A stretch of DNA of 30,819 bases from a virus. Positions 1,174 to 17,222 of the stretch are shown one piece after another. The stretch spans positions 1 to 30,819 of the IMG/VR virus record IMGVR_UViG_3300027714_000069; one strand, 5' to 3'. How positions within the stretch are numbered: position 1 is the stretch's first letter; every line of letters starts with the position of its first letter. A program made the translations under genes and the position numbers. Below the pieces are notes generated by a model, which had not been told where the DNA came from, made no database searches, and worked only from the letters and a program-made list of their open reading frames with translations.

Positions 1174-1473
1174 ATGAATCAAAAGAAGGTGAAAGCCTTA
1201 AGAAGAAAAGTAAAACCTTTTCGGGTAGAGTGGTTAAAGACACTCTTAAGTGAAGAAGAAGGAGAACGTGTCTCTATAGACAACATAGATGATTTAGCCC
1301 CTACGGAAGATTACTATGCAACTAAAGGTACTATTCGTCTTTCCTTTATGACACCGAAATGGATAATGAAAACCTTAAAGAAGAATCCTTGTATTGCTTC
1401 CTTCTCAGAGTTGTCATTCTATTATGAAGACTGGAGAAAGAAAAATAAGGAAGCGTTGAAATGGATATTATAA
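1174..1473 (+). CDS. Small hypothetical protein, 99 aa
   Basis: This 99-residue protein starts at ATG 1174, preceded by GAAGGG at a suitable distance. The N-terminus is strongly basic (MNQKKVKALRRKVKPFRVEW), followed by an acidic stretch (LLSEEEGERVSIDNIDDL) and a C-terminal half containing RLSFMTPKWIMKTLKKNP. There is no signal peptide or membrane segment. It is the first gene downstream of the candidate promoter at 1116-1142 and ends in a gap containing a small hairpin. I know of similar unnamed phage proteins but no function. Confidence 0.7.
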   Translation: MNQKKVKALRRKVKPFRVEWLKTLLSEEEGERVSIDNIDDLAPTEDYYATKGTIRLSFMTPKWIMKTLKKNPCIASFSELSFYYEDWRKKNKEALKWIL

Positions 1474-1500: not shown

Positions 1501-1511
1501 TGGAGCATATT

Positions 1512-2414
1512 ATGTTTAAGAATAATTTTGTAAAAGTACTGATTGTTTTACTAATTGCTGGGGGTATGTCTGCCTTTGTTGATTATCGTGGTCAACAGCA
1601 GATAGAAGCATATGAAAAAAGTACGCAAAGACAAGTTAGAAATCTTGAAAATACTCTAACGACATTGCAAAGTGAGAGTAAAAATGCAGTGTCTTTCGAG
1701 GTATTAAACCAGTCTATAGATAGCTTTCATACGGGAGTAATAAACCCTTTAGAGTCTCAGGTTGAAAGTAATGCTGCATTCGCAAGGACTTTTTCTAAGG
1801 AGCTGGAAGGTCTTCACACTACAGATACGCTTATTCAAAAAAGTAATAAGAGTATGGAAACGATGCTTTCTTTTCTTAGTGCAGAGGTTTCGTCATTATT
1901 AAATGAGGTTAGGATTGCAAATAAAAAATTAGTAGAGCACTCTGAAGTGCTTCATAAACACTGGACTAATTCTAAAGGGCCTGTACTAGAAAGTGTACAA
2001 ACTACAAAGCCTGTAGCGCCTGAACCTATAGTACCTGAACCACTTGTAGTAAGTTCTCCTAAAAAAGAAATTGTTGAAAGCAAGCCTGAAGCATCTGATG
2101 TAGTTAGTGAACTTTTTGGCGACCCGTCAGGCCCTAAATCAGAATGTTCTTATGTTTTAAAACAAGGAAGCAAGCCCAGTACTAGAGCTATTCAGCGTGC
2201 AGTAAATAGGCTAACAAAAAAAGCTAGCTATAGCGTTTCTGCCCTTTTTAATATAGTAGATGGAAAGGCTTCCGACCTAAGAGTGTACAGTAATCCAAAG
2301 GCTCCAGAGGTACTCGATAAGACTATACATAAACATGTTTCTAAGTTAGACTTTGTTTCTACTGACGGAATAATGTACGGCTGTAACATGAAATTTAATT
2401 TACAAGTAACATAG
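1512..2414 (+). CDS. TonB-like membrane-anchored protein with coiled coil
   Basis: This 300-residue protein has the layout of an energy-transducer protein. It has a short cytoplasmic N-terminus, one membrane helix (about 8-22, VKVLIVLLIAGGMSA), a long helical or coiled-coil region (about 28-150), a Pro-rich linker (about 165-180, VAPEPIVPEP) and a C-terminal domain (about 210-300). That last domain resembles TonB_C: a strand with DG turn (ALFNIVDGKASDLRVYS), a helix (PEVLDKTIHKHVSKLDF) and a final strand (GCNMKFNLQV). TonB spans the periplasm and touches the TonB box of outer-membrane receptors. The SxxxH signature of the TonB membrane helix, needed for ExbB/ExbD coupling, is absent, so it may not be energised. 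Cys 212 and Cys 291 could form a disulphide. The family call rests on pattern only; a TolA-like or unrelated fold remains possible. Confidence 0.6.
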   Translation: MFKNNFVKVLIVLLIAGGMSAFVDYRGQQQIEAYEKSTQRQVRNLENTLTTLQSESKNAVSFEVLNQSIDSFHTGVINPLESQVESNAAFARTFSKELEGLHTTDTLIQKSNKSMETMLSFLSAEVSSLLNEVRIANKKLVEHSEVLHKHWTNSKGPVLESVQTTKPVAPEPIVPEPLVVSSPKKEIVESKPEASDVVSELFGDPSGPKSECSYVLKQGSKPSTRAIQRAVNRLTKKASYSVSALFNIVDGKASDLRVYSNPKAPEVLDKTIHKHVSKLDFVSTDGIMYGCNMKFNLQVT

Positions 2415-2433
2415 AAGAGAGAGGAAAATAGTG

Positions 2434-2889
2434 ATGTCAGAAAAAAATACATTTAACGCAGCAACAGGTGTCGGTGAGGTCACAGGCCATGCTTACTATG
2501 CTAATGTAGTTACACCTAACACAACCTTCGATGATCGTTGGGAAATTAATTTAGTATTGGACGATGAAACCCTTTCTGATTTTGAGAATCGAGGGCATAC
2601 TATTAAAGAAAAAGACTACGGGAGGTTTGTAAACTTTAAAAGAAATGTGAATCGTAAAGGCGGAGGTCAAAATACTAGGCCCACTCTTGTTGATGAGGAA
2701 CGCAAACGAGTAGACACCCTGCCAAAAATAGGTAACGGTTCTTTAGTGAAGGTACAATACAGCGAATATGTTTGGAACTATAACGACAACTCAGGCAAAG
2801 GACGAGACTTGCGTGCTATACAATTGCTTGATTTAGTAGAATACAATGAGCCTGATGGTGTGGGCATGTACGACGAAGGAGCTTTTTAA
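2434..2889 (+). CDS. Single-stranded DNA-binding protein, T7 gp2.5-like
   Basis: This is a 151-residue protein that probably coats ssDNA at the replication fork and recruits polymerase and helicase. Its length, position just upstream of the primase-helicase and polymerase, OB-fold-like strand pattern (GEVTGHAYYANVV, WEINLVLDD, GSLVKVQYSEYVWNY) and acidic C-terminal tail (EYNEPDGVGMYDEGAF) match phage gp2.5-type proteins. The aromatic end of the tail is also typical. An in-frame GTG lies at 2431, but ATG 2434 is preferred because GAGAGGAA (2419-2426) is better spaced from it. No catalytic residues are expected in this family. Confidence 0.7.
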   Translation: MSEKNTFNAATGVGEVTGHAYYANVVTPNTTFDDRWEINLVLDDETLSDFENRGHTIKEKDYGRFVNFKRNVNRKGGGQNTRPTLVDEERKRVDTLPKIGNGSLVKVQYSEYVWNYNDNSGKGRDLRAIQLLDLVEYNEPDGVGMYDEGAF

Positions 2890-11309: not shown

Positions 11310-13052
11310 TTATTTCCACGTATATACTTTTAACGGTTTGGCTTTTCCTTTGACTGTTATAGGAGCTAGTTCTTTTAAATCAAAAGAGCAATGCTTTGCA
11401 GTCTCTTCGCCTATCAGTGTACCTACGCCTGCAACCTTAGTACTTGACTCTAGTCGTGCAGCTATGTTGCAAGGATCTCCTATAAGAGAAAATGCAAACC
11501 TATCGGTAGCTCCAAAGTTTCCAGCTATACAAATGCCAGAGTTAACTCCTATACCTATTGCAATTTCAGGTATGCCTTCTTTTTTAAACTTCTTGTTTAG
11601 CTCAATGATATTCCCTTCTATTTCTTTAGCAGTCTGTAAGGCTAAGTCATGGTGGTCAGGTTGGGGAATAATAGTATTATAATGGAACATGCCTGCATCC
11701 CCAATAAACTTATCAGTACAGCCATAAAATTTATTAGCTGCCTTCACCTGTACATCAAGTACGTTATTCATAATGTAAGTAACCATCTCTGGCTCTACAG
11801 ATTCCGACAGGCTAGTGAACCCTCTTAAGTCTGTGAAGATAATACTACAGTCCACTCTGTTTCCGTTTACCTTACAAAGCTCTGGATTGTCCTGTAGCTT
11901 CTTAACCATTCGGGGATCAAGGTACTTGCCAAACTGCTTCTTAACTTGCTGTCTTAACTTGTACTGCTCTCTGAATCTAAAGTAGAACGCAGTAGCTCCT
12001 GTAATAAACTGACACAGCAGAGTCCACGTTACATCAATTAACAAGCCTTTCTGTATTAGGTAGAAGCCTACATACGCATTGCCTATTAACGTCAAGGCAA
12101 AAAGACTGATCCCTAAGGTAGTACCTAAGAGGCTTAAAATAAACCAGACTAAAACAACAGAACAAAAAAGCATTAGTAGCTCTATGCCTAAGGCGTAATC
12201 AGGAATCTGGGGGCTATTCTGTATTAGAATGCTTTCAGCAAGCGCTGCTTGTATTTTATGTGGCTCTAGTAGCCCTACAGGAGTAGCGAGTTGCGGCATT
12301 ACTCCCGGTGCAGTTACCCCCACAAACACAAACGTTCCCTCTACATTCATTTCTTGTAGCGTTGTCTGTGGTGTGTCTACCCAACTGATCCACTTACGCC
12401 CTAAAGAATCTACAGGGATCGGTGGTAGCCCTTGTACCCGTATCTCTTCTATACCATTATCGTTTGTTTTAATTATATAGGTACTGGAGTCTAACAAGAC
12501 CTTGAGTACTTCCGTACCGTAGGCAGAAACCCAACCATCAGGTGTTCTCATTAGTAGGGGTAAGCGCCTGACTAAATTATCTACATCCGTTTGCGCTACT
12601 GCGATACCAGAGTTGGAATGCTCAGACAGTATTGGAATGTTATTAAGCACGCCTTGTACTTTAAACCCTCCAATATCATCACCCATTATTACAGTGCCTG
12701 TAGTCTTGGGGTACTGGTTGTTGCTAGTTTCAAATAGGGGCAGTACAGAGGGCGCGTAACTAAGAGCCGCAGCAAATTCCTCATCGCCTCCTAATCTATC
12801 TGCATGTGGGAAACTAATCACCCATCCCACACCAATGGCCCCTGCAGTAAGTAACTCAATCTGTATTTCTGCTAATCGTTTTCGAGGTAAAGGATAACCT
12901 CCTTCTTTATCTATATCTTCTTCGGTTATATTTAAGATTGTAAAGTTACCAGAGGGTTCTGGCTGAGTAACTAAAGCATCAAAGGTTTTAAGCTTAAGAA
13001 CTTCTAAAGGTTCTACTTCAAAGGTAACAGGAATAAAAAACAGCACCAGCAA
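11310..13052 (-). CDS. CHASE2-domain class III adenylate/guanylate cyclase
   Basis: This is a 580-residue membrane sensor cyclase. An N-terminal hydrophobic anchor (LVLFFIPVTF) is followed by a periplasmic CHASE2 domain (about 15-275), three membrane helices (about 287-308, 312-333, 340-358), a linker and a catalytic domain (about 400-580). Metal-binding Asp 408 (FTDLRGFT) and Asp 452 (KFIGD), purine-binding Lys 448 and transition-state Asn 529 and Arg 533 (NIAARLE) are all present. The purine-selecting position holds Ser 522 rather than the usual Asp or Thr. The enzyme should make cyclic AMP (or GMP) in response to a periplasmic signal. The listed start is TTG without good ribosome site; AAGGAAG lies 6 nt before an in-frame ATT ending at 13068, which would add MLKIAI. 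The gene follows FecR, a pairing familiar in bacteria. Confidence 0.88.
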   Translation of the reverse strand: MLVLFFIPVTFEVEPLEVLKLKTFDALVTQPEPSGNFTILNITEEDIDKEGGYPLPRKRLAEIQIELLTAGAIGVGWVISFPHADRLGGDEEFAAALSYAPSVLPLFETSNNQYPKTTGTVIMGDDIGGFKVQGVLNNIPILSEHSNSGIAVAQTDVDNLVRRLPLLMRTPDGWVSAYGTEVLKVLLDSSTYIIKTNDNGIEEIRVQGLPPIPVDSLGRKWISWVDTPQTTLQEMNVEGTFVFVGVTAPGVMPQLATPVGLLEPHKIQAALAESILIQNSPQIPDYALGIELLMLFCSVVLVWFILSLLGTTLGISLFALTLIGNAYVGFYLIQKGLLIDVTWTLLCQFITGATAFYFRFREQYKLRQQVKKQFGKYLDPRMVKKLQDNPELCKVNGNRVDCSIIFTDLRGFTSLSESVEPEMVTYIMNNVLDVQVKAANKFYGCTDKFIGDAGMFHYNTIIPQPDHHDLALQTAKEIEGNIIELNKKFKKEGIPEIAIGIGVNSGICIAGNFGATDRFAFSLIGDPCNIAARLESSTKVAGVGTLIGEETAKHCSFDLKELAPITVKGKAKPLKVYTWK

Positions 13053-13072
13053 TATGGCTATTTTTAAAATAA

Positions 13073-14260
13073 TTAACTTCCTTGTTTAATATTAATAGTA
13101 GAAGAAGTTCCACCATTTGTAGAGATTTGATTTACCTTTCCTTCTTGGTCAATGCGTATGCTATAGGAGCCATCTTTAGGTACTTTTATTTGTAACGCAT
13201 CTTCTATCTTACGTAGGAATGTTAAGTTAACCGTTGTAGAAAAGGTACTTATCTGTGTATCTTTATCATAGCCTACGGTAGTACCTGTAACCCCGTCAGA
13301 GGACAGTGCCTTATCTGCTTTAGACAACTCATCTACATCCTGTAGTACGTCTAAAAGATCTTCAAGAAAATTACCGGCAAGATAGTCTATATCTAGTTCT
13401 TGGTATTCTAAAGAATCTTCAGCTAAAGCATCCTGATCTAGATCTTCAAACTCTAAGAAGTCTACATCAAGCACGTTATCAACAGCCGTTGTAGACTCTG
13501 TTTCTACAAGCTCTTTAGTTTCGGGAGGGTTGACAATCAACATATTGTCGATCATATCAAGTGTTAGGTTTAATATTACTGAGGGAGTAGGTGGGGTTTC
13601 AAAGTTGTACACAGTAGTAGCCTCATAGGGCTTAGTAAGAACTACATTTCCAAGAGCAGTCGAGACTTCAATTTCACCAGAGCTATTACCAAACTCGTCA
13701 GGCAATAAAATTATAAGGGCTTCTCCGGTTTCTGAAACAGTTATTGTAAAGTCAGTTCCTCTAATTGCTATAGACGCGGAGTGTGTGCGAATCTTAATGT
13801 TGTCTTTAGAAATTCTTCCTTTTGTACCCGTTATAAATCTTCCAGTACCTTTAAGAAAGTTTAACGCAAGCTCTCCCTTATTAGGATCAGTATCAAAGAT
13901 AAAACTATCTACCGTTACGTTACTGTGTTCTGTAAGACGTATAACACTATCGTCCCTAAAGGTAATACCCATCCTGCCGTTAGCAGTCTCTAATGTGTCC
14001 ATAGAGTTTATAGAGAAAGCAAGCTCGCTTTCGTAGGGCTTATCTCTTACTACTCTGGTGTTTCCTCTTAGCTCTGTAATATTTCCAACGTCAACACTAG
14101 CATCCAACTGCTGTGCCTTGATCGTTTTGGTTGATACAAATAGTACCGTTATCACCAGTAGAGGTAACAGTAAGCCAATCGCTAGCCAACGTAGAAGCTT
14201 GGTCAACTTCAAAGCTTCTAGAGTCTCCTGCATGTGTAAGGCTAAAGTAACCTTCTGCAT
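13073..14260 (-). CDS. FecR-domain secreted protein
   Basis: This is a 395-residue exported protein. After a basic n-region comes a hydrophobic segment (LAIGLLLPLLVITVLFV), probably a signal peptide cut near KA-QQLD. A FecR domain of about 150 residues follows (VGNITELRGNTRVV, GRMGITFRDDSVIRLTE, LNFLKGTGRFITG, TRTHSASIAIRGTDF-like core ending RGTDFTITV). Next are a very acidic stretch (DLDQDALAEDSLEYQELD) and a C-terminal beta-rich domain. FecR domains act as periplasmic sensors or scaffolds; next to CHASE2 cyclases they probably supply or sense the periplasmic signal. ATG 14260 has GGAG 6 nt upstream; alternatives are ATG 14299, ATG 14233 and TTG 14212. All overlap the curlin gene out of frame, so the signal peptide is encoded inside that gene. 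Confidence 0.82.
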   Translation of the reverse strand: MQKVTLALHMQETLEALKLTKLLRWLAIGLLLPLLVITVLFVSTKTIKAQQLDASVDVGNITELRGNTRVVRDKPYESELAFSINSMDTLETANGRMGITFRDDSVIRLTEHSNVTVDSFIFDTDPNKGELALNFLKGTGRFITGTKGRISKDNIKIRTHSASIAIRGTDFTITVSETGEALIILLPDEFGNSSGEIEVSTALGNVVLTKPYEATTVYNFETPPTPSVILNLTLDMIDNMLIVNPPETKELVETESTTAVDNVLDVDFLEFEDLDQDALAEDSLEYQELDIDYLAGNFLEDLLDVLQDVDELSKADKALSSDGVTGTTVGYDKDTQISTFSTTVNLTFLRKIEDALQIKVPKDGSYSIRIDQEGKVNQISTNGGTSSTINIKQGS

Positions 14261-14807
14261 ATCCGTCTCCATCATAATTAACAGTGTTACTATCGCCATC
14301 TATATCCATAAAGTTCGTTGCTGAATCTATATCAATATCTGCGTTAATAGTATTCAATGAACCTTGAACGGTCCAGTCGAGGTCTGTATTGCCGGATAGT
14401 GCTGCAGTAGCAAGATCAAGAGTAAAGGTATTACTGTCTCCTGTAACCGCTACATTAAGGTCTGAGTTATCTGCGCCAAATGTATTGGTGGGGTCTACTG
14501 TGCTTGTAAAAGAATTACTATCTCCATCAAAGTTAAAGTAGGCTGTCATAGAGTCCGCGTACATTTCACCTAAGAATTTATTCAGATTTCCTACCTGATT
14601 AATATCCAGCGTCATAGATGTACCGTTAAGATCAAGCGAAGTCATTGTTCCCGCCGTAGCCTGCAAGCCACCAATAAGGTTTCCGCTTCCAAGTTGTTCG
14701 AGATCTATGTTAGCTGTAGAGCCTATTTGATCTATATAAATTTCATTGTCTGCTGCTAAAGATAAGCCAGTGAACAATACCAATAACAAACCGATTACTT
14801 TCTTCAT
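14097..14807 (-). CDS. Curlin-repeat secreted protein (CsgA/CsgB-like)
   Basis: This 236-residue exported protein has a clear signal peptide (MKKVIGLLLVLFTGLSLAA) and then imperfect curlin-type beta-strand repeats. Early units keep the curlin signature: IYIDQIGSTANIDLEQLG and MTLDINQVGNLNKF. Later units change to GDSN forms (FNFDGDSNSF, VAVTGDSNTFTL, MDIDGDSNTVNY, THAGDSRSFEV). Curlins pass through CsgG and form amyloid fibres outside the cell; here it follows csgG directly (ATGA overlap, 14804-14807). A TTG at 14816 is possible, but ATG 14807 gives the better signal peptide. Only one curlin gene is present. Two cysteines at the C-terminus (224, 236) are unusual, and the last 164 nt also encode the FecR start. 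Amyloid formation is inferred. Confidence 0.8.
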   Translation of the reverse strand: MKKVIGLLLVLFTGLSLAADNEIYIDQIGSTANIDLEQLGSGNLIGGLQATAGTMTSLDLNGTSMTLDINQVGNLNKFLGEMYADSMTAYFNFDGDSNSFTSTVDPTNTFGADNSDLNVAVTGDSNTFTLDLATAALSGNTDLDWTVQGSLNTINADIDIDSATNFMDIDGDSNTVNYDGDGYAEGYFSLTHAGDSRSFEVDQASTLASDWLTVTSTGDNGTICINQNDQGTAVGC

Positions 14808-15658
14808 GTCTTCCAATACCCCCGAATAAATCCTACTCTAATAATTTCTAATACGCCTTCTTCTATTGCTTTCTGTAAAGCTATAGAGGTGCTTTCATTC
14901 TCAGCAACGCCTCCTTCTATTTCAATAAGTCTTGTTTCTTGTTCTATAAACCTAAAAATATCTTGCGATATACTTGCTGAAGTAATGCTCTTTGATACCA
15001 GTACCTCTATTAAGACTTCCCCTGTAGATACAGATATTAATCTTAATGTAATAGTAATAGAATCTTCTCGGTACTCTTTGCTTGTACCAATACCAAGATA
15101 GCGCGCACCAGCACCGCCTGATCGTATGTTAGTATCGTAGCTTAGTACACCGCCTTGTATGAGTAACCCTGCTAGTAACAATGGTTTTACAGCACTGTCC
15201 TCGTCAAAGGTTTCTCTTGTAGAGCGTATTAACTGGCGTTCTTTTGTTAGGCTATCCAGCCCTACCCGCTCTACTACTTGAAAGAACTCGCCGTTTGCAG
15301 CGTGCTTTAAAGCCCTAATAAGAAAAGCTTCAGGAGCCTGTGTAATGGCTGTGCTAAATAATGCAAATGCTCCGTTGCTCTTACGTTGGCCTGTCTGATC
15401 TTTAAAGCTATTGGGGTAAATAGCAACTATAGGTTTTCGTTTTGCTGGAACTACTTGTCTAAGCTCTTCTGATTGTAGCTCTAATATTGTAGACTTTTTA
15501 AGAACTACGTCGGGTATACCCCTACTTTTAATAAGCTCATCATAATTGAACGCACAGCTAGAAAGTAAAGTTACCAATAGGAACAGTAATGTTAGTCGTG
15601 CCCCCAGACCCATCTGTAATTGTGAGCGTAATTGTTTCTTCTTCAACAACATATTCAA
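14804..15658 (-). CDS. csgG: CsgG-like outer-membrane curli secretion channel (lipoprotein)
   Basis: The product is 284 residues, close to E. coli CsgG (277). A lipoprotein signal (LTLLFLLVTLLSSC) ends in a lipobox with the lipid-attachment Cys. Strong matches to CsgG follow: DQTGQRKSNGAFALFSTAIT, FLIRALKHAANGEFFQVVER, LDSLTKERQLIRSTRE, the transmembrane hairpin part RSGGAGARYLGIGTS, SVSTGEVL, IFRFIEQE and AIEEGVLEII. CsgG forms a nonameric outer-membrane pore. The start is uncertain: TTG 15658 has AGAGGG at 8 nt, ATG 15652 is badly spaced, and ATG 15613 gives a compact signal peptide without ribosome site. All lie inside csgF, out of frame. No CsgE, the periplasmic cap of the channel, is seen in the window. 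Confidence 0.93.
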   Translation of the reverse strand: MNMLLKKKQLRSQLQMGLGARLTLLFLLVTLLSSCAFNYDELIKSRGIPDVVLKKSTILELQSEELRQVVPAKRKPIVAIYPNSFKDQTGQRKSNGAFALFSTAITQAPEAFLIRALKHAANGEFFQVVERVGLDSLTKERQLIRSTRETFDEDSAVKPLLLAGLLIQGGVLSYDTNIRSGGAGARYLGIGTSKEYREDSITITLRLISVSTGEVLIEVLVSKSITSASISQDIFRFIEQETRLIEIEGGVAENESTSIALQKAIEEGVLEIIRVGFIRGYWKT

Positions 15659-16034
15659 TTGTATTACCCTCTAAGGTTAAGCTACCTGCTTGTTGGGGTG
15701 TTTCTCCAAACAACTGATCTACTAGTTGCCTACTAAGCTGTGCGTATATTCTGCTTTCGAGATTTCTAATAAATCTTGCAAGCGTTGTGTTCTCTGCTTC
15801 TCTAACTAATTCATCTGTATATGCATCTATCTCTTCTTTAATGGCGGCTCTTCTTGTAGCTTCCTGATTCTCTATCGTAAGATAATGAGAAGAAGAATTG
15901 ATGCCAGAAAAACTAGGGCTTTTAAATTTATACAGTAATTCATTTGCTTGAGCGGATATACTAAAGAAAAAAAACAGCGCCGTTAATATTAAATTAGCTA
16001 ATACAAATTGAGAGTTTCTTTTTTTCTTTAACAT
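15558..16034 (-). CDS. csgF: CsgF-like curli assembly factor
   Basis: This 158-residue secreted protein has a basic n-region (MLKKKRNSQF), a hydrophobic core (LILTALFFFFSIS) and a signal cleavage near AQA-NE. The mature start, ELLYKFKSPSFSGINSSSHY, matches the CsgF N-terminus that lines the CsgG pore ([20 protein letters not shown] in E. coli). A helix (LARFIRNLESRIYAQLSRQL) and a C-terminal beta domain (IEYVVEEETITLTITDG, TTNITVPIGNF) also follow the family order. CsgF couples CsgG to nucleation of curli subunits at the surface. It is some 20 residues longer than E. coli CsgF. The ATG overlaps the upstream stop by 1 nt with no clear ribosome site, which suggests coupling; the end overlaps csgG by up to 101 nt. 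Confidence 0.88.
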   Translation of the reverse strand: MLKKKRNSQFVLANLILTALFFFFSISAQANELLYKFKSPSFSGINSSSHYLTIENQEATRRAAIKEEIDAYTDELVREAENTTLARFIRNLESRIYAQLSRQLVDQLFGETPQQAGSLTLEGNTIEYVVEEETITLTITDGSGGTTNITVPIGNFTF

Positions 16035-16665: not shown

Positions 16666-16926
16666 TTATTTATCTTTCTCATTGTTATCTGTTTTATTAT
16701 CATACTTTAGTTTTAAAACAGTGTTTATTTTTATTTGTAATCGTATCATGTCTTGGTCTAACAACCGCAGTTGATCTGTAAGTCTTATAATAGTTGTCTT
16801 CATTTCCTGTACAGCAGGATCAATTTTAGTAGTAATTGTTTGCCACACAAAGTAGACAAAATAACCAAGTCCCATTACCATTACTACAGGAAAACCAAAC
16901 TCCGAAACTACTTGTACAAGATCCAT
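16666..16926 (-). CDS. Small membrane protein with coiled coil (paralogue of upstream gene)
   Basis: This 86-residue protein has an N-terminal membrane helix (GFPVVMVMGLGYFVYFVW), then a helical region (TTIIRLTDQLRLLDQDMIRL) and a charged tail (KYDNKTDNNEKDK). It aligns along most of its length with the 98-residue protein encoded just upstream: EFGFPV/ELGLPV, YFVYFVW/YFIFLVM, DQDMIRL/NNDIIRI, VLKL/ALNL. The pair is therefore a tandem duplication. Its position next to the 3TM holin suggests a lysis-related (holin- or inner-spanin-like) function, although this topology also fits other small phage membrane proteins. Confidence 0.68.
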   Translation of the reverse strand: MDLVQVVSEFGFPVVMVMGLGYFVYFVWQTITTKIDPAVQEMKTTIIRLTDQLRLLDQDMIRLQIKINTVLKLKYDNKTDNNEKDK

Positions 16927-17222
16927 TAGTCTCGCCTTGCGTCTATCTTGCCGTCTTCAACAAAGTTTTCTGCTCTAGCAATTCTGTCAAGATCAGGAGA
17001 AAGATTCAGTGCGCTTGACACGCTGGTATCAATACGAATTATATCGTTATTCATAGTAGAAGCTCTAGTAATAAGCATCTTTGAAATAGATTGAACAGTT
17101 TCTATTTCACTTACCAAACCATTCATTAGTTGTTTCATAACCAGAAATATAAAGTAAGCCATAATAAGACCTCCCGCTACGGGAAGCCCTAGCTCACCTA
17201 TTAAGCGAGCAATCTCTTGCAT
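16926..17222 (-). CDS. Small membrane protein with coiled coil, 98 aa
   Basis: This 98-residue protein starts at ATG 17222 and ends with TAG at 16926, overlapping the next ATG by 1 nt. It has an N-terminal membrane helix (LPVAGGLIMAYFIFLVM), a helical segment (SEIETVQSISKMLITRAST) and a polar C-terminus (DLDRIARAENFVEDGK). It is the upstream member of the duplicated pair. Topology is predicted N-out with the helical tail in the cytoplasm, or the reverse. It lies directly downstream of the 3TM holin gene, so a lysis function is the best contextual guess. Confidence 0.68.
   Translation of the reverse strand: MQEIARLIGELGLPVAGGLIMAYFIFLVMKQLMNGLVSEIETVQSISKMLITRASTMNNDIIRIDTSVSSALNLSPDLDRIARAENFVEDGKIDARRD

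Follow-up and report, generated by a model that had tools for sequence, protein, structure and literature searches.

TonB and TolA are entry routes into Gram-negative cells for many phages and bacteriocins. Both proteins contact their motors via the SHLS residues in the membrane helix, and their C-terminal domains bind targets by beta-strand addition (PMC12204202). According to the title of Howard et al. 2001 (cited in PMC9769762), transport through FecA and FhuA is inhibited when a periplasmic TonB domain is produced in vivo. A phage protein acting on this machinery is Cor of phi80 and N15, which inactivates the TonB-dependent receptor FhuA (PMC11436027).

Mobile elements repeatedly carry motorless TonB or TolA domains, as seen in lambdoid phages and in Klebsiella plasmids. 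With E. coli TonB as the query, tblastn found small TonB-domain proteins in phage 21, JLK-2012, ev017, Perceval and Klebsiella ST13-OXA48phi12.4. The three lambdoid proteins that were inspected (phage 21 UMO75484, JLK-2012, ST13-OXA48phi12.4) have a lipobox, lack a spanning part and are encoded in or near the lysis region. PHROG 1267, which is annotated as an Rz-like spanin and is matched by the ORF L126:1090-1806, is also matched by the E. coli TonB C-terminal domain at 3e-16; the family probably consists of TonB-domain lipoproteins and is misannotated. Beside a colicin-E3-like bacteriocin operon, a Klebsiella plasmid encodes a TolA-domain lipoprotein and, directly after it, a secreted TonB-domain protein (L170:5549-6282, NZ_CP082044). 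This pair recurs on many Klebsiella plasmids, with TolA-domain matches in 744 plasmid records, and possibly serves tolerance to Tol- or Ton-dependent bacteriocins.

The window, i.e. the whole analysed stretch of 30,819 nucleotides (IMG/VR record IMGVR_UViG_3300027714_000069), contains an ORF at 1512-2414 whose product is very probably a motorless protein of the TonB/TolA type. The features of the locus are the following:

1174..1473, + strand: phrog_37981 protein, frequent upstream neighbour
1502..1505, + strand: GGAG, Shine-Dalgarno-like, 6 nt 5′ of the ATG (read from the sequence)
1512..2414, + strand: whole gene of the motorless TonB/TolA-type protein (very probable identity), ATG start, 300 aa
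1524..1580, + strand: transmembrane helix (residues 5-23) lacking SxxxH, His and acidic residues
1584..1967, + strand: helical spacer, residues 25-152; AlphaFold helix of low confidence, under purifying selection in relatives
1968..2132, + strand: Pro-rich linker, residues 153-207, probably disordered (sequence; pLDDT <50)
2133..2411, + strand: TonB/TolA-type C-terminal domain, residues 208-300 (AlphaFold, structure searches, Pfam in relatives)
2145..2147, + strand: Cys212, invariant (32/32 aligned; also 28/28 in A1)
2382..2384, + strand: Cys291, invariant (32/32 aligned; also 28/28 in A1)
2373..2411, + strand: beta3, final strand of the domain, residues 288-300; shows the strongest conservation within it and is a candidate ligand-binding edge
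2431..2889, + strand: gp2.5-like ssDNA-binding protein (SSB), constant downstream neighbour

The short N-terminal tail (MFK) is followed by a hydrophobic helix at approximately residues 5-23 (mean hydropathy 2.07), a long charged stretch, the Pro-rich linker (VAPEPIVPEPLVV...) and the C-terminal domain. AlphaFold, supplied with a 28-member alignment, predicted helices of low confidence for residues 3-152, disorder for 153-209 and a confident domain for 210-300. The Pro-rich periplasm-spanning region expected of TonB is present as the linker 153-207 and is preceded by helix. Translation, AlphaFold and structure search all agreed with the arrangement described in the sequence-only reading: membrane anchor, helical spacer, Pro-rich linker and a TonB_C-like C-terminal domain.

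Related contigs were gathered by primase and SSB searches. The family, which is undescribed, comprises 52 distinct ORFs located just 5′ of the SSB and primase genes on marine podovirus contigs, often directly 3′ of a phrog_37981 gene. ORF 1512-2414 is a real gene, because the 51 further distinct homologous ORFs occupy the same slot where the contig shows it, and because close pairs have a median dN/dS of 0.18-0.35 in each of its segments, which indicates purifying selection along the whole protein. Its position 5′ of the SSB, primase and polymerase genes suggests early expression. The gene is not universal, since the nearby clades L075, L076, L067, L171 and HTVC115P lack it. In one relative (L003:3781-4227) the ORF encodes a membrane helix and a coil, and the SSB gene follows too closely to leave space for the C-terminal domain; this represents either natural loss or an assembly error.

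The C-terminal domain is the best-conserved part of the family (59% mean pairwise identity), and within it the last strand has a mean entropy of 0.63 bits, compared with 0.97-1.54 elsewhere. The spacer carries the motif KRFIEYEVxMSKKSI, whose conservation in relatives suggests that this segment may do more than span. The window protein does not keep the motif (window 1584-1976, residues 25-155) and is therefore an outlier of the family, with 17% identity in the spacer and 44% in the C-terminal domain.

The predicted C-terminal domain of the window protein (pLDDT ~90) has the element order alpha-beta-beta-alpha-beta. In a Foldseek search of the PDB the first 14 rows were all TonB-family C-terminal domains (TonB, FusB, HasB); the E-values were modest, with a best E of 6e-3 at probability 1.0. 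After re-alignment with VIA the first 14 rows were TonB or FusB, with Z 8.9 to 5.7 over 75-90 residues, the best being the TonB C-terminal domain 1u07. TolA followed with Z ~5, and unrelated folds did not exceed Z 3.9, except for two rows that matched the helical spacer. The resemblance to TonB_C noticed in the sequence-only reading was thus borne out by the predicted fold, for which TonB domains ranked first, TolA lower, and which was not that of an unrelated family.

Sequence profiles gave a fainter picture. HMMER did not find a TonB_C match in the window protein. Among 26 domains of relatives Pfam TonB_C (PF03544) matched 11 (best E 9.7e-5) and was the sole family matched by more than four members; TIGR01352 tonB_Cterm matched 6 of 28 relatives, and the AgmX/PglI C-terminal model 11 of 28. 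These matches, coming from the relatives and not from the window protein, weakly suggest a domain of TonB_C type. When aligned by hhalign with TonB C-terminal domains, the phage profile kept the structural register (E 7e-4, probability only 26%), and the motif SVSALFNI-VDGKASDLRV fell on QVKVKFDVTPDGRVDNVQI of TonB. The P value was 0.002 against the TonB set and 0.3 against marine TolA. With profiles this shallow the pairwise hhalign probabilities stay low (13-26%), and we take these comparisons as support for the register, not as proof. The TolA family PF06519 did not match the phage domain, but it also misses real marine TolA. SAR11 TolA, considered as the origin of the phage domain, was unsupported by the profile comparison with marine TolA.

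Searches for other homologues of the window protein were negative. HMMER comparisons of the whole protein and of the C-terminal domain alone with Pfam, PHROGs and PDB sequences gave coiled-coil or chance matches only, and tblastn against 50,697 phage records gave no convincing relative. A GTDB genome scan with the alignment of the C-terminal domain did not find a cellular homologue. The structure search of BFVD returned nothing convincing, a result that does not show absence.

In a sister clade (L072, L164-L167), whose primase is 71% identical, the same slot holds a shorter protein composed of a transmembrane helix, a spacer, a Pro/Glu linker and a small domain. It had no phmmer match to the family, and the hhalign signal was faint (E 0.002, probability 13%). 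Modelled on its own shallow alignment, the domain again had the order alpha-beta-beta-alpha-beta (pLDDT ~51-85), and TonB/TolA C-terminal domains dominated the top of the structure searches with Z at most 7.0. For this model of middling confidence, TolA domains stood first in VIA by a slight margin (Z 7.0). The two cysteines are at places comparable to those of the family. Although such Z values are not proof alone, the agreement of slot and build makes a chance likeness of fold unlikely.

The contact with the motor is missing. The SxxxH signature, which the sequence-only reading had found lacking, is absent from the membrane helix of the window protein and of all 46 full-length members, and the helix has no conserved histidine or acidic residue in the family. 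As a control, 16 of 17 TolA proteins from Pelagibacteraceae contained SxxxH, and the 17th was a truncated gene call. A search of the window and of 11 related, fragmentary records revealed no ExbB/TolQ-family gene, and a tol-pal operon context around the TonB-like gene was not seen in the window or its relatives. A transducer build without motor contact in every full-length member suggests selection for binding without pulling. The lack of motor-binding residues, and of a phage motor gene in these 12 records, weakens the earlier idea that the protein redirects uptake of vitamin B12. For the same reasons a working transducer that aids cobalamin import for the phage class II ribonucleotide reductase is highly improbable, even though the reductase gene is common downstream of the TonB-like gene.

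Two cysteines of the C-terminal domain are kept in all 46 full-length members, and in these proteins the pair C212 and C291 are the sole cysteines outside the membrane helix or a probably over-extended start. The short N-terminal tail, the transmembrane helix and the conserved pair fit an N-in topology, in which the protein would be periplasmic and C212 and C291 would form a disulfide.

With TonB the phage protein shares the membrane helix, a periplasm-spanning part with a Pro-rich stretch and a C-terminal domain of the same element order (Z 8.9 to 1u07). It differs from TonB by the absence of SxxxH and of NQPQYP, by the long helical spacer and the two invariant cysteines, and in being a phage gene product without motor partners. 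The likeness to TolA includes the same build, the helical spacer, a related C-terminal fold (Z ~5) and two cysteines in the domain, but again SxxxH is missing, the cysteines are elsewhere and the profile does not match marine TolA. The lambdoid lipoproteins (PHROG 1267) resemble it as phage-encoded, motorless TonB C-terminal domains; they are, however, proteins of 108-122 aa with signal peptide and lipobox, belong to temperate phages and are recognisable by BLAST, whereas the window protein has a transmembrane helix without lipobox and a 128-residue spacer. The Klebsiella proteins are likewise encoded by a mobile element and carry a TonB or TolA domain without motor contact, but they are plasmid-borne and short, in secreted or lipoprotein form. 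To our knowledge no TonB-like domain has been described in Cor, whose build is unrelated to that of the window protein; the likeness lies in the inactivation of a TonB-dependent receptor, the target of a decoy being putative here. What is new at this locus is a full transducer build without motor contact in a protein whose gene is conserved within a group of marine phages.

We propose that the phage protein would be anchored in the inner membrane and exposed to the periplasm. It is built in three parts like the force transducers TonB and TolA, yet its membrane helix lacks the residues for contact with the ExbB/TolQ motor. Produced early in infection, the rod could span the periplasm to the outer membrane: a spacer of approximately 128 helical residues, with a rise of 0.15 nm per residue, would measure ~19 nm, which together with the linker would be long enough. 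The C-terminal domain would then hold, by beta-strand addition and without pulling, the outer-membrane-side partner of the host transducer. Since TonB and TolA domains bind by strand addition, the ligand contact would be expected on an edge strand. For a rod that cannot be pulled, competition with the host's own transducer would be the simplest consequence, and the protein would act as a competitive decoy or tether that blocks host Ton or Tol function. Likely benefits would be that later phages or bacteriocins needing that machinery are shut out, or that the envelope is loosened for lysis. We hold this reading, a motorless decoy or tether that reaches the outer membrane and blocks Ton or Tol, tentatively, as having somewhat less than an even chance of being correct.

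Which system would be the target depends on the host. By polymerase, primase and virion protein the closest cultured relatives are Pelagibacter phages, with only 38-49% identity. A primase relative (71%) lies in a MAG labelled Pelagibacter and another (55%) in a Sphingobacteriales MAG, both without a recognisable TonB-like gene. No tRNAs that could serve as a host clue were found in the window. These data give a weak hint toward Pelagibacteraceae; the GC content of the window (39%) is higher than that of the relatives (32-35%), and its host may therefore differ from theirs.

We surveyed 60 genomes of the family of the Pelagibacter MAG, Pelagibacteraceae. TonB_C was found in none and TonB-dependent receptor barrels in 13, whereas TolB and an ExbB/TolQ-family gene were each present in 56 (the latter in the tol operon where looked at); the operons inspected read TolQ-TolR-TolA-TolB. 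Ca. Pelagibacter ubique is likewise reported to have no TonB-dependent transporter (PMC3400609). A decoy for TonB boxes would be of little use in a host like this, and TolB would be the natural partner. Given these counts, Tol-Pal is an equal candidate to the TonB box as target. Of the TonB-mimic proposal in the sequence-only reading, an inner-membrane-anchored mimic without motor-binding motif, probably periplasmic, still stands; its TonB-box target is weakened by the Pelagibacteraceae hints.

The decoy reading can be narrowed in two ways. In one, which follows the main idea of the sequence-only reading, the protein occupies the TonB boxes of outer-membrane receptors and thereby keeps out phages or bacteriocins that depend on TonB. 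The C-terminal domain is nearer TonB than TolA by fold and by profile, the lambdoid phages carry TonB-domain lipoproteins, and Cor provides a precedent, but the survey counts, the situation in Ca. Pelagibacter ubique and the absence of the NQPQYP segment of E. coli TonB from the phage domain make this form rather unlikely. In the other, the protein competes with host TolA for TolB and weakens Tol-Pal and the outer membrane, thereby aiding lysis or blocking Tol-dependent phages or bacteriocins. A helical spacer is also found in gamma-proteobacterial TolA (PMC12204202), Tol-Pal is near-universal in Pelagibacteraceae, and the bacteriocin plasmid of Klebsiella has a TolA-domain lipoprotein beside its TonB-domain protein. 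The sister-clade model, which ranks TolA domains first in VIA, points the same way, but is of middling confidence, and both the failure of the phage profile to match marine TolA domains and the different cysteine positions argue against TolA. This form is, to a similar degree, rather unlikely.

In another reading, an inner-membrane, spanin-like protein could grip the outer membrane with a TonB-type domain, as the layout of transmembrane helix, long helix and C-terminal, outer-membrane-facing domain resembles that of an i-spanin; residues 5-60 gave a weak Rz-like match (E 0.1), and in HTVC115P a lysozyme-like gene is located just 5′ of the SSB gene. Of the i-spanin hallmarks, a single transmembrane helix and a periplasmic coiled coil, the former is present, and the helix after it is predicted with low confidence. 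The lipobox scan of the window found CsgG only, there is no o-spanin-like lipoprotein gene nearby, and the TonB-like gene sits in the replication block. We know of no spanin with a TonB_C domain, and consider an envelope linker for lysis unlikely.

On the - strand of the window, at 11310-16034, genes for a CHASE2-cyclase, FecR, an unassigned ORF, CsgG and CsgF form a curli-type cassette. Pelagiphages are already known to carry such a cassette (PMC9599517), and methylophage Melnitz to carry CsgGF (PMC9004378). In L058, L104, L147 and L148 the cassette, as far as each contig extends, precedes the TonB-like gene and is co-oriented with it. In the window it follows the reductase gene and runs opposite to the TonB-like gene. 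The differing place and strand indicate that it has moved. In L123, where the TonB-like ORF is broken, the cyclase occupies the same place as in the L058 group. Five contigs thus have the cyclase, along with FecR and CsgG if the contig is long enough, 5′ of the TonB-like gene (or of its slot) and in the same orientation. This would suit a protein that serves in the periplasm as a scaffold for an envelope system encoded by the phage, for example this cassette, and that is unrelated to host Ton or Tol. Most relatives carrying the TonB-like gene show no curli-type cassette in the available sequence, and we regard the scaffold as very unlikely.

If the decoy or tether reading is true, it would constitute a directly testable mechanism of exclusion or takeover, would explain the orphan TonB and TolA domains scattered over phages and bacteriocin plasmids, and would offer natural motorless proteins as probes of Ton and Tol function. 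The broader proposition, that a marine podovirus group disables the Ton or Tol motor with a motorless transducer, an undescribed mode of takeover that recurs as the orphan domains of lambdoid phages and bacteriocin plasmids, is possible but doubtful. We came across no published description of a protein resembling TonB or TolA in phages of this kind, and neither name occurs in the main text of the article on pelagiphages with curli genes.

Two further observations concern other regions. At 16669-17222 on the - strand of the window, a tandem pair of paralogous genes (phrog_18771) possibly functions in lysis; the first of them has a weak holin match (E 0.014). The early region of one relative (L003:1515-2657) contains an ORF that resembles a DNA cytosine-methyltransferase, recognised by eye only.
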